Assembly: GCF_022763305.1 (NCBI RefSeq) | Contig: NZ_JALEGT010000021.1 | Coordinates: 1 to 47,240, forward strand | Origin: Marivita sp. | Lineage (GTDB): Bacteria > Pseudomonadota > Alphaproteobacteria > Rhodobacterales > Rhodobacteraceae | DNA: 47,240 bases | Reading direction: 5' to 3' | Part shown: one piece after another, positions 1 to 9,325 of the stretch | How the letters are laid out: each line of letters begins with the position of its first letter | Numbering within the stretch: position 1 is the stretch's first letter | Notes under the pieces: generated by a model | Told to the model about the DNA's origin: nothing | Databases searched by the model: none | The model's input: the letters and a program-made list of their open reading frames with translations, nothing else | Made by a program: the position numbers and the translations under genes

Positions 1-81
1 ATAGATGAAAAAAGGCTTTGGGCAAAGCGTTGAATATGGCGAAATTACGTTTTTTTCCCCTTTTCGTCCGAGTGTTGCGGG

Positions 82-102
82 AAAAGCCCGCCGCAAAGGC
101 GG
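82..102 (-). terminator. Rho-independent terminator of the Gfo/Idh oxidoreductase gene
   Basis: On the minus strand the stop codon is followed directly by CCGCC-TTTGC-GGCGG and then a short T-run (GCTTTTCCC). The stem touches the stop codon. Read from base pairing; not folded by computer. Confidence 0.6.
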
Positions 103-1194
103 TCAGAATGCATCGATAACGCTATGAGTTTGCGCAGAATTCTGCGCAGCAAGCCCTATCCGCACGGCCCAGGCACCATCCTGTATTGACACCTCGGGAA
201 CCCCTCCATTTCGCACCAGATCCAGGAAGCGTGCATGCTGATAGAAGGTCGATCCATTGTGATCGCCCGCTTCGAGGATCGTCGGATCGACCGGAATATC
301 GACCGCTTGCGGCCCTTTTGGATGGCGCGGGCTGATGATCACCTGCGCCACGGGCGGTGCGCCCAGATGGGTTGGCCAGAACCGGCCCGGACCGGGCACG
401 AAGGCCTCGATCTTGCCATTGGGACCGACCGCGCTGATCTCTTCCTGGTATTTCGAGCCTTCCGCATACATGCACAGCTCCAGCATCGCCCGTGCGCCAT
501 TGGCGAAATCGACGATCACATAGGCGGTGTCCCAGATGTCGGGCACCTCTCCATTATAGGCCTCATCCAGATGGTTCACCTCCTGCCCAGCGCTCGCGGT
601 CACGCGCACCGGGTCGGAGCCAAGGATCAGGCGCATGAGGTCGAAGAAGTGACAGCACTTTTCGACCAGCGTGCCTCCGGTGTTGCGGTTGAAGCGGTTC
701 CAGTCGCCCACCTTGTGCAGAAAGGGAAAGCGGTGTTCGCGGATGGTAAGCATCTTCACCCCCCCCGTGGCGCGCTGCACCTCCTCGGCAAAGGTCTGGA
801 TGGGGGGCATGTAGCGGTATTCCATCGCCACCCAGATCGGTGCGGGGTAGCTCGCCGCAATCGCTTCGATGCGCGCGATGTCGGCGGGGTCGGTATAAAG
901 CGGCTTTTCCATCAAGAGCGGCAGCGGGTTGAGTTCCGCGATCTGCTCCAGCGCGTCGATGTGGCAATGGTTGGGGCTCGCCACAAGCAGACAGTCAAGA
1001 TCATCGCGCGCCAACAGATCTTCGATCGACGCCTCGAGCGTCGCGTTCCCCGCAATCGCCTTGGCTGCGGCCGCCATGATCTCGTCCGGCTCATAGATCG
1101 CCGCCACCCGCGCGCTGTCGAGCAAGGCGATATTGCGCAGGTGCTCCTGCCCCATCATGCCGCATCCGATGATGCCGTAATTGATGACTTTCAT
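103..1194 (-). CDS. Gfo/Idh/MocA family NAD(P)-dependent oxidoreductase
   Basis: A 363-residue cytoplasmic dehydrogenase-fold protein. The N-terminal Rossmann motif GIIGCGMMG lies at residues 7-15, the family EKP motif at 96-98 and the GGTLVEKCCHFFDL segment at about 173-186, with His182 in the position of the family's catalytic histidine. Full family length; ATG start. It is transcribed with the GntR gene (9 bp apart) and away from the sulfonate monooxygenase operon, so it probably serves the same substrate. Members of this family include sugar and inositol dehydrogenases and the NAD+-dependent sulfoquinovosidases, which hydrolyse glycosides through transient oxidation. Given the neighbours, the last is an attractive inference, but the substrate cannot be read from the sequence. 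Confidence 0.88.
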   Translation of the reverse strand: MKVINYGIIGCGMMGQEHLRNIALLDSARVAAIYEPDEIMAAAAKAIAGNATLEASIEDLLARDDLDCLLVASPNHCHIDALEQIAELNPLPLLMEKPLYTDPADIARIEAIAASYPAPIWVAMEYRYMPPIQTFAEEVQRATGGVKMLTIREHRFPFLHKVGDWNRFNRNTGGTLVEKCCHFFDLMRLILGSDPVRVTASAGQEVNHLDEAYNGEVPDIWDTAYVIVDFANGARAMLELCMYAEGSKYQEEISAVGPNGKIEAFVPGPGRFWPTHLGAPPVAQVIISPRHPKGPQAVDIPVDPTILEAGDHNGSTFYQHARFLDLVRNGGVPEVSIQDGAWAVRIGLAAQNSAQTHSVIDAF

Positions 1195-1203
1195 GTCTGT
1201 CCT

Positions 1204-1905
1204 TCAGGTGATGCGCGCGACATAGCGCGCGACGTCTGTGTTGATCCAGTTCCACGAGGCCTCGGCCGCCTCGCCTTCGGGGCCATAGCTGACCCGTGTC
1301 GCCCGCATGCAGGGCTTCCCGGCAGACAGGCCAAAGCTGGCCGGGGCCCAGTCCGGCACGGCGTCCAGATCCAGCCGGTCCACCGCCTTGGTGATCCAGA
1401 GACCCAGAGATTCACGGTAGTAGAGATACAAAGACTCCCGCAGCGCCACCGCGTCGATCCGGTCGACATAGCTGCCGTCAAGCCAGATTTCCTCAAGCAC
1501 GGCGGGCACGCCGTTCAACCGCCGCAACCGGCGAATCCGGTGCCCTTGGTCCGATGCGCCAAAGCGCGGCAAGCCGTCAGGCTTGACAAGCCGCGTCACC
1601 GACAAAAGTTCGGCGGTGGGCAACCCGCCCCCCTCGATCAGCTCGACCCGGAAGAACGCGTAGACAGACTGCGTGTCTTCCTGGGCGCAGATATAGTTGC
1701 CCGACCCCTGCACACGCTCCAGCAGGCCCAGCGCCGTCAGTTCATTCAGTGACTTGCGCAGGGTGCCCACCGAAATGCCGAGTTTCGATGCCATCTCGCG
1801 TTCCGGAGGCAGGCGTTCGCCATCGACGAGGCGACCAGCCTGAATGTCGCGGATCAGCAATTCGCTGATCTGCACATATTTCGGCAGGGCATGCGTGTCG
1901 GACAT
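1204..1905 (-). CDS. GntR-family regulator with UTRA ligand-binding domain
   Basis: A 233-residue regulator: an N-terminal winged helix (about residues 8-72, with PPEREMASKLGISVGTLRKS recognisable as the GntR helix-turn-helix) followed by a UTRA small-molecule sensor domain (about 85-230). The ATG at 1905 is preferred over a GTG 24 bases upstream because GCGAGAA sits just before it and the candidate operator lies further upstream. It is divergent from the monooxygenase operon and co-directional with the Gfo/Idh gene, so it probably controls both arms in response to the imported substrate or a breakdown product. The effector is unknown. Confidence 0.88.
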   Translation of the reverse strand: MSDTHALPKYVQISELLIRDIQAGRLVDGERLPPEREMASKLGISVGTLRKSLNELTALGLLERVQGSGNYICAQEDTQSVYAFFRVELIEGGGLPTAELLSVTRLVKPDGLPRFGASDQGHRIRRLRRLNGVPAVLEEIWLDGSYVDRIDAVALRESLYLYYRESLGLWITKAVDRLDLDAVPDWAPASFGLSAGKPCMRATRVSYGPEGEAAEASWNWINTDVARYVARIT

Positions 1906-1913
1906 TTCTCGCA

Positions 1914-1948
1914 CCAAAAATTGATACACTATTGATCTACATTTTTGG
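1914..1948. promoter_or_regulatory. Candidate operator dyad in the divergent promoter
   Basis: Perfect 8-bp inverted repeat CCAAAAAT-N19-ATTTTTGG in the AT-rich gap between the GntR gene and the monooxygenase operon. It is the only strong dyad in this short intergenic region, and its place suits control of both directions by the adjacent GntR protein. Binding is inferred. Confidence 0.45.
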
Positions 1949-1990
1949 CGATGCTACGCAAGGGGAAATCATGCGCCCCGGAGACACCTT

Positions 1991-3145
1991 ATGACCATCG
2001 TGCCGATCACCTCACCTGACCTCGACGCGGTGGAGGTTTCGTGGTTCGCGGCGCTGTGTTCCGACGACTATGAATTCCTCGGCGTGCCTGACGGAAACCT
2101 GCGTTCCAGCTTTGCGCATTGCTCGTCCATCGTGAAAGAGGCCGAGGCGCAGGGGTTCCGCAACATCCTGTGCCCGTCGTCTTATCAGGTTGGACAGGAC
2201 ACGCTCAGCTTCGTCGCCGGCTGCGCGCCGATCACCGACAAGATCAATATGCTGGCCGCTGTGCGTTGCGGGGAAATGCAGCCAATCATGCTGGCCCGCA
2301 CGATTGCAACACTCGACCACATGCTCGAAGGGCGGCTGACGGTGAACATCATCTCCTCGGATTTCCCGGGCGAAAAGGAAGACAGCAAACTGCGCTACCA
2401 GCGCTCCCGCGAGGTGGTGGAGATCCTCAAGCAAGCGTGGACACAGGGCGAGATCACCTACAAGGGCGAGGTCTACACTTTCGAAGGGCTGACCACCGAT
2501 CCGGCGGTGCCGTATCAGACAGGTGGCCCGCTACTCTATTTCGGCGGCTATTCCCCCGACGCGCTGGAACTCTGTGGGCAGCATTGCGATGTCTACCTCA
2601 TGTGGCCCGAGCCGAAAGAGGCGCTGGCGCAGCGGATGAAAGACGTGAACGCGGTGGCAGAACGCTATGGCCGTACACTTGATTACGGCCTGCGTGTTCA
2701 TGTCATCGTCCGCGACACCGAGGCCGAGGCCCGCGAATACGCGCAGCACATCGTCAGCAAGCTGGACGACGAACAGGGCAGGACGATCCGCGAACGGGCA
2801 CTGGACGCGACCTCGCTTGGTGTATCGCATCAGGCCAAGAACCGCGAACTGGCGGATATGGAAGGCTTTGTGGAGCCGCATCTCTGGACCGGTGTGGGCC
2901 GGGCGCGCTCGGGCTGTGGCGCGGCGCTGGTGGGATCCACCGATCAGGTGCTGAGCGAGCTGGAGCAGTACCAAAAGATGGGCATCCGCGCGTTCATCCT
3001 GTCGGGCTATCCGCATCTGGACGAATGCCGCCATTTCGGCAGCCGGGTCTTGCCGCAGCTCAAGACCGTGCAACTGAACCATGCCTATGGCCGAGTGCCC
3101 GCGGGCACGCCGATGACGCCATTGGGCGCCGGGGAGCGTCGCTGA
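1991..3145 (+). CDS. SsuD-type FMNH2-dependent sulfonate monooxygenase (LLM class)
   Basis: A 384-residue bacterial-luciferase-like monooxygenase, expected to use FMNH2 and O2 to cleave a C-S bond and release sulfite. It follows E. coli SsuD closely in the C-terminal half. The sulfonate and flavin pocket residues known in SsuD (Arg226, His228, Arg297, Tyr331, His333) have counterparts at Arg235/His237 (GLRVHVIVR), Arg306 (GVGRARSG) and Tyr340/His342 (LSGYPHL). No SsuABC transporter is nearby. Instead it is followed by an aldo/keto reductase and a flavin reductase, the gene set of sulfoquinovose monooxygenase (SmoC) pathways. A purine-rich GGAGACA precedes the ATG. The desulfonation chemistry is well supported; the substrate is inferred. 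Confidence 0.88.
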   Translation: MTIVPITSPDLDAVEVSWFAALCSDDYEFLGVPDGNLRSSFAHCSSIVKEAEAQGFRNILCPSSYQVGQDTLSFVAGCAPITDKINMLAAVRCGEMQPIMLARTIATLDHMLEGRLTVNIISSDFPGEKEDSKLRYQRSREVVEILKQAWTQGEITYKGEVYTFEGLTTDPAVPYQTGGPLLYFGGYSPDALELCGQHCDVYLMWPEPKEALAQRMKDVNAVAERYGRTLDYGLRVHVIVRDTEAEAREYAQHIVSKLDDEQGRTIRERALDATSLGVSHQAKNRELADMEGFVEPHLWTGVGRARSGCGAALVGSTDQVLSELEQYQKMGIRAFILSGYPHLDECRHFGSRVLPQLKTVQLNHAYGRVPAGTPMTPLGAGERR

Positions 3146-3184
3146 TGCCCCTGAACGGTTTACCAGAATTTTATGGAGCGCGCT

Positions 3185-3207
3185 TAGATTCTTCTACGAA
3201 GAATCTA
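3185..3207. repeat. Intergenic palindrome (AGATTCTTC type)
   Basis: Inverted repeat with 10-bp arms TAGATTCTTC / GAAGAATCTA around a TAC loop, in the 160-bp gap between the monooxygenase and aldo/keto reductase genes. It resembles the palindrome at 17773-17794. It could slow transcription or shape the mRNA inside the operon. There is no T-run, so it is not a typical terminator. Confidence 0.6.
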
Positions 3208-3305
3208 GTCACACGCCGCAAACCAAACCGCAGAGCACATGCTTCCCAAGCAATGGCGCGCGGCATGTCTCGGCTCCACAAACCGAAATCTACGAACGCA
3301 CAAGG

Positions 3306-4199
3306 ATGACCATGGACCGCGTAAGACTGAACGACGCCCTCGAAATGAGCCGCCTTGTCTATGGCATGTGGCGGCTGGGTGACGATGCCGACACCAGCGT
3401 GGACCACATCCGCAACAAGATCAGCGCCTGCCTCGATCAGGGCATCACGACGATGGATCAGGCCGACATCTATGGCGGCTACGAGGCCGAGGAAATCCTT
3501 GGCACCGCACTCACACCCGAGCTGCGCAACCGGATCGAGATCGTCACCAAATGCGATATCGTGGCCCCTGTGGGGCGCTATGCCAACGCGCGTGTCAAAT
3601 ACTACGACACGTCGCGCGCGCATATCCTGTCTTCGGTCGACCATTCCCTGCGGCTGATGAAGATCGACCATATTGACCTTCTGCTAATCCACCGCCCCGA
3701 CCCGCTGATGGATGCCTGCGAAACCGGAGCGGCGCTGGACGAGGTTGTGGCAAGCGGCAAGGTCCGCGCGGTTGGTGTTTCGAACTTCCGTCCCTGGGAT
3801 TGGGAGCTGCTGCAGGCGTCGATGAACACGCCGCTGGTCACCAATCAGATCGAGATCAGCCTGCTGCACCACGCCCCCTTCACCAATGGCGATATCGCGT
3901 TCCACCAGAAGAACGGCCAGCCTCTCATGGCCTGGTCGCCGCTGGGGGGCGGTGCGCTCTTCGAACAGCACAACGCAGCGCTGCGCACCGCGCTCAAGAC
4001 AATCGGCGATGATCACGGCGTCGATGAAGCGGCAGTCGCAGTCGCCTGGCTCTTGGCGCATCCGGCGCGCATTCTACCTGTCCTCGGCACCAACAATCTG
4101 GACCGCATTGCCCGCATCGGCGATGCTGCAAAGATACAGATCGACCGGGAGACATGGTTTGACCTTTACACCCACGCCCTTGGACACGAAGTGGCCTGA
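3306..4199 (+). CDS. Aldo/keto reductase, YdhF/SmoB-like
   Basis: A 297-residue NAD(P)H-dependent TIM-barrel reductase. The AKR catalytic tetrad is visible: Asp51 and Tyr56 in DQADIYGGY, Lys82 in VTKCDI and His129 in LLLIHRPDP. The sequence resembles E. coli YdhF along its length (MAWSPLGGG and the final WF segment are conserved). It lies between the sulfonate monooxygenase and flavin reductase genes. In the sulfo-SMO pathway the equivalent enzyme reduces 6-oxo-glucose, the product of sulfoquinovose desulfonation, to glucose. That role is inferred from the neighbourhood. The start could be the ATG at 3306 or the one two codons later. Confidence 0.88.
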   Translation: MTMDRVRLNDALEMSRLVYGMWRLGDDADTSVDHIRNKISACLDQGITTMDQADIYGGYEAEEILGTALTPELRNRIEIVTKCDIVAPVGRYANARVKYYDTSRAHILSSVDHSLRLMKIDHIDLLLIHRPDPLMDACETGAALDEVVASGKVRAVGVSNFRPWDWELLQASMNTPLVTNQIEISLLHHAPFTNGDIAFHQKNGQPLMAWSPLGGGALFEQHNAALRTALKTIGDDHGVDEAAVAVAWLLAHPARILPVLGTNNLDRIARIGDAAKIQIDRETWFDLYTHALGHEVA

Positions 4200-4207
4200 G
4201 ACACGCG

Positions 4208-4714
4208 ATGAACGCCTTGACGCATAGTTTCGATCCCGCACAGGACAATGCCCGCGAGTTTCGCGATGCCCTTGGCCGTTTCGGAACCGGGGTCACCATC
4301 ATCACCTGCGATGCAGGTGACGGCCCACTGGGCATCACCGCCAACAGCTTTGCCAGCGTATCGCTCGACCCGCCGCTGGTGCTCTGGTCGCCGGCCAAGT
4401 CGTCAAGCCGCTATCCCTTTTTCATGGCGGCCGATCATTTCGCCATTCATGTTGTCGGCGCGGACCAGGCTGCGCTCTGCACGGCCTTTGCCCGCAATGG
4501 CAACCCGTTCGACCAATTCGATTGGGAAACCGGCGATGAAGGCGTGCCATTGCTCAACGGATGTCTGAGCCGGTTCGAATGTACCAAGGTGGCCGAGCAT
4601 GACGGCGGGGATCATTCGATCGTGGTCGCGCGCGTGCGTCGGGTCACCACTCGCGCTGGGGACCCGCTTCTGTTTTTCAGCGGACGCTACGGAGGATTTA
4701 CCGAGGCGACATAA
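4208..4714 (+). CDS. Flavin reductase, partner of the monooxygenase
   Basis: A 168-residue flavin reductase of the DIM6/HpaC-like flavin-binding family. FGTGVTIITC near the N-terminus, then GITANSFASVSLDPPLVLWSP-like flavin-binding segments and the terminal LLFFSGRYGGF are typical. It would reduce FMN with NAD(P)H and supply FMNH2 to the SsuD-type monooxygenase two genes upstream, making a two-component monooxygenase. It begins 8 bp after the aldo/keto reductase stop, so the two are co-transcribed. In sulfo-SMO clusters the matching gene is SmoA. Confidence 0.88.
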   Translation: MNALTHSFDPAQDNAREFRDALGRFGTGVTIITCDAGDGPLGITANSFASVSLDPPLVLWSPAKSSSRYPFFMAADHFAIHVVGADQAALCTAFARNGNPFDQFDWETGDEGVPLLNGCLSRFECTKVAEHDGGDHSIVVARVRRVTTRAGDPLLFFSGRYGGFTEAT

Positions 4715-4783
4715 ACCGCCCCGACAGACAAGAAAAAGCGGGGCCGCCGGCGGGAGACCGGTGAGGGATTGGGAGGAGGCCGC

Positions 4784-5362
4784 ATGGCCATATTGCTCTG
4801 GCTCTTGAAGCCATTGGAAGCTGTGCTCGACATAGTGCTGCGGCTCGGACGCTGGATCGCGATCGTGGCCATTGGCCTGATGGTCTGTGCAATCCTGCTT
4901 CAGGTCTTTTGCCGCTACGTCCTTGGCAATGCCCTGCCCTGGCCGGAAGAAGCCGCCATTTTCCTCATGCTCTGGATGACCGCCGTCATCGCGCCCTCGG
5001 CCTATCGGCGCGGGGGCTTTGTGGCGCTGGAAATTCTGTCCTCAGCCCTGCCCAAGCGAGGCGCGGCGGTTCTCGCGCTGGTGCTTCTGCTGATTTCGGG
5101 CCTCGTGCTCTATATCGGCGCCCAGATGGGCTTGGGGGAAATGACCAGCCTTGCGGGCAAGTTCAAAAGCGCGTCGCTCAAGTACCCCACCCCGGACGGG
5201 TGGGAAAAGATGCCCAATTCCTGGCAGATCGCGTCTCTTGTGACGGGTCTCTGGCTGCTTTTCGTGGTCAATATCGAGTTGATCCTGCGCAACCTCATCA
5301 CCCTGGCCGGAGGAGAGGACCGCTTGCGGCCCGCCTTTGATGCCGAACTGACGGCGGAGTAA
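4784..5362 (+). CDS. TRAP transporter small permease (DctQ type)
   Basis: A 192-residue integral membrane protein with four hydrophobic segments (about residues 20-42, 50-70, 85-110 and 140-165), matching DctQ subunits. VLQVFCRYVLGNALPW-like text and the WTAVIAPSAYRRG segment are family hallmarks. The ATG at 4784 is chosen because GGGAGGAG lies 7 bases before it; an upstream TTG would put that ribosome site inside the gene. It follows the flavin reductase and precedes the large permease by 4 bp, placing import in the same operon as the enzymes. Confidence 0.85.
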   Translation: MAILLWLLKPLEAVLDIVLRLGRWIAIVAIGLMVCAILLQVFCRYVLGNALPWPEEAAIFLMLWMTAVIAPSAYRRGGFVALEILSSALPKRGAAVLALVLLLISGLVLYIGAQMGLGEMTSLAGKFKSASLKYPTPDGWEKMPNSWQIASLVTGLWLLFVVNIELILRNLITLAGGEDRLRPAFDAELTAE

Positions 5363-5366
5363 CGCG

Positions 5367-6656
5367 ATGCTGGTCTGGTTCCTGCCCCTCTTTCTGCTGT
5401 TCCTGATGATCGGCTTGCCGGTGTTCTTCGGCATGCTCGCGGCCCCCGGCATTCTGCTCTGGCTCAATGGTCAGGACCGCGATCTGATCCTGCTCTATCG
5501 CAACGTCTATAACGGCATGGCGTCCTTTCCGCTGATGGCGATCCCCTTCTTCATGCTTGCGGGCGAGTTGATGAACCGCGGCGGCATCACCATGCGGCTG
5601 GTCGAGTTCAGCCAGGCCATGATGGGCCATTTCCGCGGCGGTCTGGCGCATGTGAACGTGCTCAGTTCCATGCTGTTCGCGGGCCTGTCCGGTTCTGCCG
5701 TAGCGGACACCTCGGCGCTTGGATCGATGCTGATCCCGGCGATGGAGAAAGAGGGCTATACCCGCAAATTCGCCGCTGCGATCACCGCCGCGAGTTCCGT
5801 CATCGGCCCGATCATCCCGCCATCGGGCATCATGATCATCTACGCCTACGTGATGGGCGAATCCGTCGCGGCCCTGTTCCTTGCGGGCATCATCCCCGGC
5901 ATCCTCGTCGGTGTCGGCCTGATGATCATGGTCAAGTTCATGGCCGACAAATACGACTTCCCGGCTTCGCGCCAGAAGGCAAGCTGGGGCGAGAGGGGCA
6001 ATGCCTCGCTCAAGGCGTTCTTCCCGCTGATGACCCCGGTGATCATCCTCGGCGGCATCCTGGGCGGTGTCTTCACCCCGACCGAGGCCGCCGCCGTGGC
6101 TGTGGGCTATGCGATCATCGTCGGCATGTTCATCCTGCGCACCCTGTCGGTCCGCGATCTGCCGGATGTGTTCATGCGCGCTGCCATGACATCGGCCACC
6201 GTGCTGCTGCTCGTGGGGGCCGCGATGGCGTTCAAAACGGTGGTGTCGCTGTCACACACCCCCGAGATCTTGGCCGAATTCGTGCTGGGCCTGAGCCAGA
6301 ACCCGTTAATCCTGCTCTTCCTGATCAACCTGCTTCTGTTCGTCGTCGGCATGTTCCTCGATGCAGGTCCGGCGATCATCATCCTCGGGCCGATCCTCGG
6401 GCCGATTTTCGTCGATCTGGGTGTCGATCCGATCCATTTCGCGATCATCATGTCCGTCAACCTGACCGTGGGGCTGGCCACACCGCCGATGGGACTCGTT
6501 CTCTTCGTCGCCTCAAGCGTGTCCGGCGAACGGGTCGAGACCATTTCCAAGGCGATCCTGCCGTTCCTTTTCATCGAAATCGTGGTGATCTTCCTGATCA
6601 CCTTCATCCCGGAAATCTCCATGACCATTCCGCGCCTCACCGGGTTTGCGGACTGA
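5367..6656 (+). CDS. TRAP transporter large permease (DctM type)
   Basis: A 429-residue inner-membrane protein with about twelve hydrophobic helices, the sodium-coupled transport subunit of a TRAP system. Segments typical of DctM include PFFMLAGELMNRGGI near residues 56-70, AGLSGSAVADTSALGSMLIP near 106-125, and the twin PPSG / TPPMG loops of the transport site. It is complete, and its ATG is 4 bp after the small permease stop. Confidence 0.92.
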   Translation: MLVWFLPLFLLFLMIGLPVFFGMLAAPGILLWLNGQDRDLILLYRNVYNGMASFPLMAIPFFMLAGELMNRGGITMRLVEFSQAMMGHFRGGLAHVNVLSSMLFAGLSGSAVADTSALGSMLIPAMEKEGYTRKFAAAITAASSVIGPIIPPSGIMIIYAYVMGESVAALFLAGIIPGILVGVGLMIMVKFMADKYDFPASRQKASWGERGNASLKAFFPLMTPVIILGGILGGVFTPTEAAAVAVGYAIIVGMFILRTLSVRDLPDVFMRAAMTSATVLLLVGAAMAFKTVVSLSHTPEILAEFVLGLSQNPLILLFLINLLLFVVGMFLDAGPAIIILGPILGPIFVDLGVDPIHFAIIMSVNLTVGLATPPMGLVLFVASSVSGERVETISKAILPFLFIEIVVIFLITFIPEISMTIPRLTGFAD

Positions 6657-6714
6657 CATCTGCGGGTCACACGGCCCGTGTAACCGACCACGAGAAAGCA
6701 ACAGGGAGTACACC

Positions 6715-7773
6715 ATGCTCAAAGGTCTTACAAAAGTGGCACTGACGGCGGCCTTGCTCGCCGGAAGCGCGATGACAGCGGCGGCACAGGATTTCACCAT
6801 CCGCGCCACGGCCAACTCGAACGAGAACGACGAAGACTATGACGGTCTCGTGGTGTTCAAGAACCATGTCGAGAACGCCTCGAACGGCCGCATCGCGGTG
6901 GAGCTCTTCATCGGCACGCAGCTGTGCTCGGGCGGTGCGGAATGTCTGCAGGGTGTGTCCGACGGCTCCATCGACGTGTTCGTGACAACCTCGGGCGGCG
7001 CGGCTGGCATCTTCCCCTATGTGCAGGTGCTCGACCTGCCCTATCTGATGTCCGACGACCGCGTAGCCGAACACGTGCTGTCGGGCGATTTCACCCGCAC
7101 CATGCGCACCATGGCGCTTGAGGATTCCGGCGACACGATCCGCATCATGACCATCGGCAACACCGGCGGCTGGCGCAATTTCGCCAACACGCAGCGCCGC
7201 GTGACCAAGCCGGAAGATCTCGCCGGTCTCAAGATCCGCACCGTCGTCGCCGACCTGCCGCAGGAACTGGTCAAGGTGCTTGGTGCTGCCCCGACCCCGA
7301 TCAGCTGGCCGGAACTCTTCACCTCGATCCAGACCGGTGTGGTGGACGGCTCCAAGAACGGCATCACCGACATCATGGGCATGAAATTCCCGGATGCGGG
7401 TCTGCAATACCTGACGCTCGACGGCCACGCCTACATGGGGGCGATCTGGGTCATGAACAACGAAAAATTCATGTCCATGCCCGAAGACCTGCGCCGCGTC
7501 GTCGTCGACGGCTTTGCAGCACTCCAGCAGGCGACCTTCGCCTCGCCCAAGCGCAAATCGATCCAGGCCTACGAGGAATTCGTCGCGGGTGGCGGTGATC
7601 TCTACGTGCCGACGCCGGAAGAAAAGGAAGCCTTCCGCGAAGCGGCAGCCCCGGTCTTTGACTGGTTCCAGGAGAACGTCGATGGCGGTCCGGAAATCTT
7701 CGAAGCACTGACCAAGGCCGTGGCCGAAGCCGAGGCCGATCTGGCGGCGGAGTACGAAGCCGACCTGAACTGA
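6715..7773 (+). CDS. TRAP transporter periplasmic binding protein (DctP type)
   Basis: A 352-residue periplasmic ligand-binding protein that delivers substrate to the DctQM permease. The ATG at 6715 gives a clean signal peptide (cleavage after about residue 24, SAMTAAA before QDFTIR) and has AGGGAG just upstream. The family hinge segment LAGLKIRT lies near residue 175; an arginine there usually grips an anionic group, which would suit a carboxylate or sulfonate ligand. Two cysteines close together (LCSGGAEC) may form a disulfide. It is the last gene of the operon, before a strong terminator. Confidence 0.9.
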   Translation: MLKGLTKVALTAALLAGSAMTAAAQDFTIRATANSNENDEDYDGLVVFKNHVENASNGRIAVELFIGTQLCSGGAECLQGVSDGSIDVFVTTSGGAAGIFPYVQVLDLPYLMSDDRVAEHVLSGDFTRTMRTMALEDSGDTIRIMTIGNTGGWRNFANTQRRVTKPEDLAGLKIRTVVADLPQELVKVLGAAPTPISWPELFTSIQTGVVDGSKNGITDIMGMKFPDAGLQYLTLDGHAYMGAIWVMNNEKFMSMPEDLRRVVVDGFAALQQATFASPKRKSIQAYEEFVAGGGDLYVPTPEEKEAFREAAAPVFDWFQENVDGGPEIFEALTKAVAEAEADLAAEYEADLN

Positions 7774-7812
7774 TCAGGTTCGGATAGCGCGATGGACGCT
7801 TTCAGACAATCG

Positions 7813-7843
7813 AAAAGGCCGCCTTTCGGGGCGGCCTTTTTGT
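7813..7843 (+). terminator. Rho-independent terminator ending the sulfonate/TRAP operon
   Basis: An 11-bp stem AAAAGGCCGCC / GGCGGCCTTTT with a TTTCGG loop, running into TTTTTG, about 40 bp after the binding-protein stop. A strong canonical terminator, and the A-rich left arm could also serve the opposing desaturase gene. Confidence 0.85.
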
Positions 7844-7897
7844 TTGGGATGTTTCCGGATGGGCCGCGCGGATGCCCGGCCGGCGCAAGTGGCGGGA

Positions 7898-8926
7898 TCA
7901 GAGAGACCGGGCGTCGCGGAACGAGAGCAGGCGGCGCGAGCCTTCGTCCCAGAGATGCAGCCGCGCATTGGCAAAGCTTTCGCGGATGGTCATGCGGTTG
8001 TGATCGGCAAGGCTGGCGTGATCACGGACCACTTCGGGCAGCCGGTAGAAGGGGATGCGGCTGTAAAGATGGTGGACGTGGTGGATGCCGATATTCCCGC
8101 TGAGCCATTGCAGCAGCTTGGGCAGCACGTAATACGAACTGCCATGCAGGGCCGCATCGTGCAATTGCCAGCCCTCGCCCTGATCCCAGAACGTGGTTTC
8201 GAACTGGTGCTGGACGTAGAAGAGCCAGACCCCCGCCGTTGCTGCAAGCAACGTCGATGGCAGGAAGATCAGCAGGATCGGCATCAGGCCCCCGAAATAA
8301 AGCATCACGAGCAGGCCTGACAGGATCGCGGCATTCGTTCCCATCGCGCTGGCCCAGTAGCGGACGCTGGACATCAGCCCCAGCGGGATGCGATTCTGCA
8401 GCAGGAAGAGATATCCCGGCCCCAAGCCGAACAGGATGATCGGATGCCGGTAAAGCCGGTACATCAGCTTGCTCCAGCCCGACAGCGCCTTGTATTCGGC
8501 CACGGTCATGGTGTGCACGTCGCCGATGCCGCGACGGTCGAGATTGCCATGGGTGCTATGGTGGATCGAATGGGTCCGTCGCCAGACATCATAGGGCGTG
8601 AGCGTCAGCACACCCAGCACACGGCCCAGCCAGTCGCTGAGCGTGCGGTTGTTGTAGAACGCGCCATGCCCGCAATCATGCTGGATGATGAAGAGCCGCA
8701 AGAGGAAAGCCGCATTCACGCAGGAGAGCGCAAAGGTCAACCGGTAGCTGACGCCCATGGCCCACCATGCGGCGGCCCATAGCGCCACGAACGGCCCCAG
8801 CGTGACGGCCAGCTCGAACGAGCTGCGCATCGCGTCAGGTTCGCGATATTTGGCGAGAATTTGAACCCAGTCTTTGGCGGAGGTCGGCACGGGCGTCTGC
8901 CCGGTAATCGTGAACTGCTCGGACAT
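7898..8926 (-). CDS. Membrane fatty acid desaturase
   Basis: A 342-residue integral membrane di-iron desaturase. The three histidine boxes are present: HDCGH at 83-87, HSIHH at 119-123 and HHVHH at 282-286, spaced by hydrophobic hairpins as in FADS-like (DesA/omega-6 type) enzymes. It would introduce a double bond into membrane acyl chains or a related lipid such as a carotenoid. The ATG at 8926 gives a short soluble N-terminus. It is a single gene, convergent with the TRAP operon. Its acyl substrate cannot be read from the sequence. Confidence 0.88.
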   Translation of the reverse strand: MSEQFTITGQTPVPTSAKDWVQILAKYREPDAMRSSFELAVTLGPFVALWAAAWWAMGVSYRLTFALSCVNAAFLLRLFIIQHDCGHGAFYNNRTLSDWLGRVLGVLTLTPYDVWRRTHSIHHSTHGNLDRRGIGDVHTMTVAEYKALSGWSKLMYRLYRHPIILFGLGPGYLFLLQNRIPLGLMSSVRYWASAMGTNAAILSGLLVMLYFGGLMPILLIFLPSTLLAATAGVWLFYVQHQFETTFWDQGEGWQLHDAALHGSSYYVLPKLLQWLSGNIGIHHVHHLYSRIPFYRLPEVVRDHASLADHNRMTIRESFANARLHLWDEGSRRLLSFRDARSL

Positions 8927-9028
8927 AAGCCTGCTTTTGTTGTATCGGTTGCAGCGTTCTATCCGATGAGAGGCAATCCGCCTACGCTTCTTCGCAGTCC
9001 ACGGGCCATCCGAGGCATTTTGCCACTG

Positions 9029-9325
9029 TCAGTCGTGATCGGCCGAATTGTCCGGGGCCTGTGGCGTGCAGGAACAGCGTTCCGGCTTGATGTCGAGCAG
9101 CGGCGTTTCGTCGATGCAGTCGGGCCCTTCAAGCGCGGGTTCCCAGTGGGGCAGCAGTTCCAGCCGGCACTCCGGCCCTTCCAACCGCCCCTGACGCGGG
9201 CAGAGGTCGCGCGTGACGAAGGGTGTGCGGATCGTCCCGATGAACTGCAGCCGCGCATTGTCAGGGGGCGGCGCGTCGGTTGCGATTTCGCCCTCGCGGA
9301 GGTCGGTTGGTAATGTCGATGTCAT
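9029..9325 (-). pseudogene. TrmO-like (TsaA domain) gene with an in-frame central deletion
   Basis: A 98-residue frame. The N-terminal part carries FIGTIRTPFVTRDLCPR and LEGPECRLELLPHWEPALEG, the start of the TrmO/TsaA domain (SAM-dependent tRNA m6t6A37 methyltransferase). It then jumps straight to CIDETPLLDIKPERC, which is the family's C-terminal motif. The intervening core, including the LYWLH and RPNPIG segments of family members, is missing: roughly 60-70 residues lost without breaking the frame. The ATG at 9325 has a good GGGAGAAG ribosome site. The short product probably cannot bind SAM, so this is called a decayed gene, though it could still be translated. Confidence 0.7.

Follow-up and report, generated by a model that had tools for sequence, protein, structure and literature searches.

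A candidate gene cluster for oxidative sulfoquinovose catabolism with TRAP-type uptake in Marivita sp.

The cluster and its enzymes

The stretch of DNA analysed here (the window; 47,240 nucleotides) comprises bases 1-47240 of contig NZ_JALEGT010000021.1 in a 4.4 Mb genome of Marivita sp. (assembly GCF_022763305.1; 99.7% complete), and its left-hand end carries a compact, divergently arranged set of genes that appears to encode the oxidative breakdown of sulfoquinovose by the sulfoquinovose monooxygenase (sulfo-SMO) pathway. On one side of a short gap lie gntR and sqgA; on the other, smoC, smoB and smoA are followed by genes for DctQ, DctM and DctP which, according to Pfam, make up a complete tripartite ATP-independent periplasmic (TRAP) transporter (Table 1). 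Every gene listed in an earlier annotation made from the sequence by eye (hereafter, the first-pass annotation) is an open frame, and the order that it gave is borne out across positions 103-7773. The same genes recur across 80 related loci (the best 80 of 555 SmoC relatives), so the layout is not due to chance: homologs of smoC and smoB are found in all 80, of gntR in 79, of sqgA in 78 and of smoA in 72, and the complete TRAP set in 54. The same gene order, including the TRAP genes, is present in Ruegeria sp. TM1040 and in Rhizobium sp. SL42 from root nodules. The window starts at contig base 1, and the sequence past sqgA is outside view; judged from the Marivita cryptomonadis locus (L010), where the three genes tested past sqgA encode an Ig-like repeat protein, an outer-membrane efflux protein and an ABC (ATP-binding cassette) export protein, the cluster probably ends at sqgA.

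The assignment of the monooxygenase draws on both structures and phylogeny. In a phmmer search of the PDB, SmoC matches 7oh2 (E = 3e-206) and 7olf (1e-203), with the next match at 1e-55; we take these two entries to be SmoC of Agrobacterium and of a Rhizobium, their PDB files giving alkanesulfonate monooxygenase and methanesulfonate sulfonatase. Pairwise identities are 77.5% to 7oh2 and 76.5% to 7olf, whereas Escherichia coli SsuD shares 33% and 7jv3, presumably MsuD, 34% over the portion that aligns; the M. cryptomonadis SmoC is 97% identical. In a tree of 19 rows, from which three paralogs of the same genome were left out (a 23-row version that included them had very long branches), a SmoC side is split from an SsuD/MsuD side with 100/100 support, and a homolog from Novosphingobium, with 53% identity, joins the former on a long branch. 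The grouping with SmoC or with SsuD had been set beforehand as a check, and the protein falls with SmoC. The first-pass annotation had also credited the enzyme with all sulfonate-pocket residues: the five tested, Trp205, Arg235, His237, Tyr340 and His342, all of them presumed pocket residues, are indeed present, and a column-based check finds them in 80/80 SmoC proteins. However, they are also shared by both SsuD proteins compared, E. coli's included, and therefore the pocket residues alone do not separate SmoC from SsuD.

The partners of SmoC can be named by similar means. SmoB matches 7bbz (E = 2e-123) and 7bby (3e-123), both of which we take to be SmoB (the PDB file names each an aryl-alcohol dehydrogenase), compared with 8e-60 for YdhF. 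Its residues Asp51, Tyr56, Lys82 and His129, presumably the aldo/keto reductase tetrad, occupy the corresponding columns in 80/80 relatives. The flavin reductase carries the Pfam Flavin_Reduct domain (E = 5e-40), has 4xhy as its best PDB match and FerA as its best NCBIfam model (220 bits, below the cut-off of 260), and is called SmoA by its operon position. SmoB and SmoC lie at most 10 open reading frames apart in the window, the proximity by which sulfo-SMO clusters are recognized in the accessible part of PMC13372026, and the flavin reductase, a further mark of such clusters, is in the operon.

The gene at the left edge, listed in the first-pass annotation as a Gfo/Idh oxidoreductase, is better described as a sulfoquinovosidase of glycoside hydrolase family 188 (GH188). 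Its closest structures are 8zn9 (E = 8e-162; 'oxidoreductase, putative' in the PDB file), 8qc3 (6e-108) and 8qc2 (9e-107), and the next match lies at 3e-19. Entries 8QC2, 8QC3, 8QC5, 8QC6 and 8QC8 were deposited as SqgA, the founding GH188 sulfoquinovosidases, which depend on nicotinamide adenine dinucleotide (NAD) (PMC10755693, accessible text). The sulfonate triad described for the family, Arg166/Leu170/Lys172, with the leucine acting via its backbone (PMC11465081, likewise in part), corresponds to Arg155, Leu159 and Lys161 here and is kept in 78/78 relatives having the gene. A search of the whole genome for GH31 (PF01055) gave no match at E <= 0.001, with 6 of 14 control genomes positive; because the genome is without a GH31 domain, no sulfoquinovosidase candidate other than SqgA emerged, and SqgA would fill a glycosidase role overlooked in the first-pass annotation. 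The N-terminus enters the NAD-binding fold straight away (MKVINYGIIGCG), and no export signal was seen by eye; given this and the family's need for NAD, SqgA is expected in the cytoplasm, and therefore the importer would have to carry the intact glycoside.

Table 1. Features of the candidate sulfoquinovose cluster and its flank (window coordinates)
Feature	Position	Strand	Basis
sqgA, GH188-type NAD-dependent sulfoquinovosidase (Gfo/Idh fold)	103..1194	-	phmmer vs PDB; sulfonate triad
gntR, GntR/UTRA regulator	ORF 1204-1929, likely 1204..1905	-	Pfam GntR + UTRA
Candidate operator/promoter	1919..1962	.	conserved element of gntR-smoC gap
smoC, predicted FMNH2-dependent sulfoquinovose monooxygenase (SsuD-type Bac_luciferase)	1991..3145	+	phmmer; tree
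smoB, YdhF-type aldo/keto reductase, predicted 6-dehydroglucose to glucose	3306..4199	+	phmmer; residues D51, Y56, K82, H129
smoA, flavin reductase	4208..4714	+	Pfam Flavin_Reduct; SmoA name from position
dctQ, TRAP small permease	4769..5362	+	Pfam DctQ
dctM, TRAP large permease	5367..6656	+	Pfam DctM; NCBIfam TIGR00786 above cut-off
dctP, TRAP solute-binding protein, proposed ligand sulfoquinovose / sulfoquinovosyl glycerol	6715..7773	+	Pfam DctP; linkage to smoC, sqgA
Fatty-acid desaturase, after dctP	7898-8926	-	no counterpart found in 80 related loci

The TRAP importer and its genomic company

Transport genes can be assessed at 73 of the 80 related loci, namely those with at least 4.8 kb past smoC, and 53 of these 73 have all three TRAP genes. 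Among the other seven, L088 has three TRAP parts (cut inside dctP), L030 and L068 are cut inside the TRAP genes and four end earlier. Linkage was then counted in 295 genomes of the family, taken as an even draw, with cut-offs of E <= 1e-100 for SmoC and DctP and E <= 1e-80 for SqgA: smoC is present in 124 genomes (one copy interrupted by a stop), a DctP ortholog in 102 and SqgA in 145. The genes for SmoC and DctP occur together in 76 genomes, in 72 of them within 12 kb, and those for SmoC and SqgA in 121, in 115 of them within 12 kb. DctP and SqgA are both found in 97 genomes, DctP only in 5, SqgA only in 48 and neither in 145 (odds ratio 58.6, Fisher p 2e-34, a statistic that ignores shared ancestry).

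The 26 genomes that have DctP and no smoC match are perhaps the most telling: 23 of them have SqgA, within 12 kb in 20. An SftI-like sulfoquinovose isomerase (NF048012) is likewise detected in 23 of the 26, as against 0/10 sulfo-SMO controls, and lies no more than 12 kb from dctP in 18. At five of the ten smoC-less loci inspected (L125-L134) the isomerase gene adjoins sqgA (L125, L126, L127, L130 and L131). In L125, genes for a PfkB kinase and a DeoC/LacD aldolase stand between sqgA and the TRAP genes, the regulator typed at this locus being DeoR, and an aldehyde dehydrogenase and an aldose epimerase are among the neighbours in L127, a make-up from which we infer a pathway like the second sulfo-Embden-Meyerhof-Parnas route (sulfo-EMP2). 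On the whole, the importer's tie to the sulfoquinovosidase is no looser than its tie to the monooxygenase, with L132 and L133 (below) as exceptions; a transporter that brings in sulfoquinovose or its glycoside would be expected to behave in this way, and one entry module seems to serve two pathways.

A number of observations weigh against uptake of sulfoquinovose by TRAP. When ABC and major facilitator superfamily (MFS) transporters were sought by homology to the proteins of L024, L037 and L082, 6 of the 73 assessable loci had ABC-type binding-protein homologs in place of TRAP, one had an MFS permease and 13 had neither of these nor TRAP, although at three of the 13 (L079, L081 and L085) homologs of further ABC permeases and ATPases lie close by; thus, TRAP is common in sulfo-SMO clusters but not required. 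In the family sample, 48 of the 124 smoC genomes are without a DctP ortholog at the cut-off, four of the 76 smoC-DctP pairs lie on different contigs, and SqgA, too, is missing from three of the 26 smoC-less genomes that have DctP. None of the SftI-like matches reaches the curated threshold of 700 bits, the best scoring 283, and sub-threshold matches also occur in 2 of 14 named control genomes. Moreover, at four of the ten loci inspected, the gene content looks like that of an SMO cluster in decay, not of a second pathway: with missing genes sought by tblastn at 1e-3, L128 (3689-8910) keeps sqgA, gntR and TRAP and yields none of smoC, smoB and smoA; L129 (4226-10830) has lost smoC only, keeping SqgA, GntR and TRAP; L132 has smoA and TRAP, and L133 smoB and TRAP, both without SqgA. 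The genomes of L128 and L129 each have an SftI-like match as well, split into two pieces and located on a different contig. The tenth, L134, has TRAP alone, with a distant DctP (50%) and no SqgA. Finally, the ligand is unreadable from structure, several DctP loops being modelled with low confidence.

The nearest PDB relatives of DctP are diverse TRAP receptors (4p47, 4p9k, 8t9t, which is an isethionate DctP, and SiaP), none of them named for sulfoquinovose. Its AlphaFold model has a mean pLDDT (predicted local distance difference test score) of 71.5 and a pTM (predicted template modelling score) of 0.73, with several segments below 50.

The loci with other transporters have features of their own. 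In L024, L028, L032, L033, L037 and L044, a sugar ABC importer replaces TRAP after the smo genes, accompanied in five of the six by a gene of the GH13 alpha-amylase family; in L033, the contig ends ahead of where that gene would stand. In Cognatishimia activa (L082), an MFS permease gene (7655-9157) adjoins gntR, and neither sqgA nor TRAP is found within 21 kb. This is the only assessable locus without sqgA (n = 1; L034 lacks the gene since its contig ends), and it looks as if it were limited to free sulfoquinovose. Downstream of the cluster, both Ruegeria TM1040 and Rhizobium SL42 carry a gene assigned to a 'putative sulfate exporter family' (L120 15079-15152; L121 14926-15885), a possible route out for the sulfite or sulfate produced.

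The gntR-smoC gap and the smoC-smoB insert

The two divergent units share a gap of 61-85 bp. The gntR frame as listed runs to 1929, but the ATG at 1905 is probably its true start, since the opening codons of the longer version are overlapped by a conserved element lying between the divergent genes. In relatives, this element reads AATTGATACACyATTGATCTACatcaa, followed by TGCTACGCAAG. Of 80 gaps (the window and 79 loci), 39 contain an exact TTGAT-N4-ATCAA inverted repeat, compared with 0.02 in mononucleotide shuffles, a count that overstates independence in that the pattern was derived from these very gaps and the loci are related by descent; elsewhere, there are only two exact matches in 1.58 Mb. 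Additionally, TTGATNTAC stands 30-130 nt upstream of smoC in 68/81. The GntR protein may bind the gap element, which we regard as a candidate operator from its sequence conservation. The window's own copy tells against this: its right arm (ATCAA) is degenerate, with 3 mismatches (TTGATCTACATTTT), and when the window was scanned for TTGAT-N4-ATCAA with at most one mismatch allowed, the gntR-smoC gap gave no match. A direct repeat of ATTGAT with 11 bp spacing is intact in the window.

A further peculiarity of the window is a 160-bp insert (3146-3305) between smoC and smoB, genes that overlap or nearly abut in 77 of 80 relatives. At about 3165-3206 it contains CAGAATTTTATGG-N8-AGATTCTTC-nn-CGAAGAATCT, which is a variant form of a palindromic element dispersed in the genome. 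A strict pattern of this element, which the window copy misses, has seven matches in this genome and occurs in 10 of 13 genomes of the genus, this one included, and in 0 of 8 outside it; the reversed control gave 0. The element may be a dispersed operator or an element resembling repetitive extragenic palindromes; the palindromic element gave no Rfam match above the gathering score. More widely, an Rfam scan of 1-9000 found no family at gathering score and four sub-threshold matches.

Proposed function, alternatives and known systems

Because the best structural matches of SmoC, SmoB and SqgA all outscore the next family by a wide margin, we favour a role for the cluster in oxidative (sulfo-SMO) sulfoquinovose catabolism, with TRAP uptake and cleavage by SqgA, and put the probability of this sequence-based reading at roughly 0.88. 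The sulfo-SMO assignment of the first-pass annotation is thereby upheld, through close homology to the solved enzymes taken to be SmoC and SmoB and the SmoC/SsuD tree. In the scheme that we envisage, DctPQM would import sulfoquinovosyl glycerol and/or free sulfoquinovose, and a cytoplasmic GH188 SqgA, with NAD as catalytic cofactor, would release sulfoquinovose from the glycoside. SmoA would reduce flavin mononucleotide (FMN); SmoC, with reduced FMN and O2, would cut the C-S bond to give sulfite and 6-dehydroglucose, which SmoB would convert to glucose. Expression of both the gntR-sqgA and smoCBA-dctQMP units would be controlled by the GntR/UTRA protein from their shared gap.

Two alternatives concern the enzymes. 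The monooxygenase could be an alkanesulfonate SsuD and the cluster one for general sulfur scavenging: its top NCBIfam model is alk_sulf_monoox, and the pocket residues are common to both groups. Yet the protein reaches 240 bits with that model, whose cut-off is 518, a sulfoquinovosidase and a SmoB-type reductase sit in the same cluster, and both the identities (33% to E. coli SsuD, 77.5% to 7oh2) and the 100/100 split led us to reject this candidate, which is now scarcely credible. The Gfo/Idh gene, for its part, might encode an ordinary sugar or inositol dehydrogenase with no tie to sulfoquinovose, as its Pfam domains are of the GFO_IDH_MocA type only and its best NCBIfam model is inositol 2-dehydrogenase; the latter, however, reaches 104 bits against a cut-off of 355, and the gap between the GH188 structures and the next PDB match (3e-19), with the intact triad in all 78 relatives, makes this very improbable. 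A role as an accessory dehydrogenase was discarded on the same matches to 8zn9, 8qc3 and 8qc2.

A more substantial alternative, although still an unlikely one, is that sulfoquinovose is the enzymes' substrate but enters by some other system, and that TRAP carries another compound (a sugar acid, some other acid or a short sulfonate). The nearest solved binding proteins are indeed a diverse group, some SMO clusters do without TRAP, and L132 and L133 keep it beside a single SMO gene without SqgA. Against this, the DctP ortholog accompanies SqgA in smoC-less clusters with a sulfoquinovose isomerase, and L128 and L129 have lost the monooxygenase yet keep SqgA, GntR and TRAP. Uptake of sulfoquinovose or its glycoside by TRAP thus remains the reading that we prefer, and a broader form of it is slightly favoured: a dedicated TRAP importer for intact sulfoquinovosyl glycerol and a cytoplasmic NAD-dependent GH188 enzyme may constitute a portable entry module, joined in related bacteria either to the sulfo-SMO pathway or to one of SftI/sulfo-EMP2 type; a few genomes would have retained it despite losing the SMO monooxygenase.

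TRAP importers are driven by an ion gradient rather than by ATP. Import by TRAP, if true, would alter what is to be expected of the energetics and the affinity of uptake when concentrations in seawater are low. The source of the sulfoquinovose would be algal sulfolipid, and the cluster probably imports, cleaves and desulfonates it to glucose. Sulfoquinovose is made at about 10 billion tons a year, and GH188 is near-universal in marine Roseobacter sulfo-SMO clusters (both from the accessible text of PMC10755693); Roseobacters are reported among marine sulfoquinovose users in the portion of PMC13372026 available. The pathway, its occurrence in Roseobacters and the presence of GH188 in such clusters are already published (PMC10755693, PMC13372026, PMC9594981 and PMC12890257, as far as their accessible text goes), and the sulfosugar importers named in the available parts of PMC9594981 and PMC12421959 are of the ABC type. 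A literature search, likewise of partly accessible sources, found no TRAP importer of sulfoquinovose described, and did not reach Liu et al. 2023, Ma et al. 2025 and Sharma et al. 2022, which may describe one. The less usual part of the cluster is thus its importer type, and the linked DctP family offers both a better marker for finding such clusters and a concrete protein for study. The first-pass annotation had proposed a marine variant with TRAP import: genomic linkage supports the import, whereas the restriction to marine bacteria does not stand, given the Rhizobium from root nodules.

The sulfoquinovosidase of the window, a GH188 enzyme, differs from that of Agrobacterium, which we take to be of family GH31. 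It is close in sequence to the GH188 SqgA structures and has the same sulfonate triad, with no apparent difference at the sites tested. The window shares its SmoA, SmoB and SmoC set with the sulfo-SMO (sulfo-ASMO) systems of Agrobacterium tumefaciens and Novosphingobium aromaticivorans, the products of which are sulfite and glucose (PMC9594981, PMC12890257, both in part). The Agrobacterium importer, however, is an ABC system for sulfoquinovosyl glycerol (PMC9594981, accessible text), where the window has TRAP. The sulfonate TRAP receptors in the PDB, 8t9t (isethionate DctP) and 24gc (a TRAP receptor for 2,3-dihydroxypropane-1-sulfonate, DHPS), belong to the same DctP family but are of low similarity to the window's protein (E = 9e-29 and 1e-17, respectively), and their ligands are short-chain sulfonates, not a sulfosugar. 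Nearer at hand are the clusters whose pathway we name sulfo-EMP2-like from their gene content: they share with the window both the TRAP system (DctP 70-81% identical in L125-L127 and L131, 47% in L130) and SqgA (45-55% identical in L125, L126, L127, L130 and L131), whereas isomerase, kinase and aldolase replace SmoC, SmoB and SmoA, and DeoR (typed in L125) replaces GntR.

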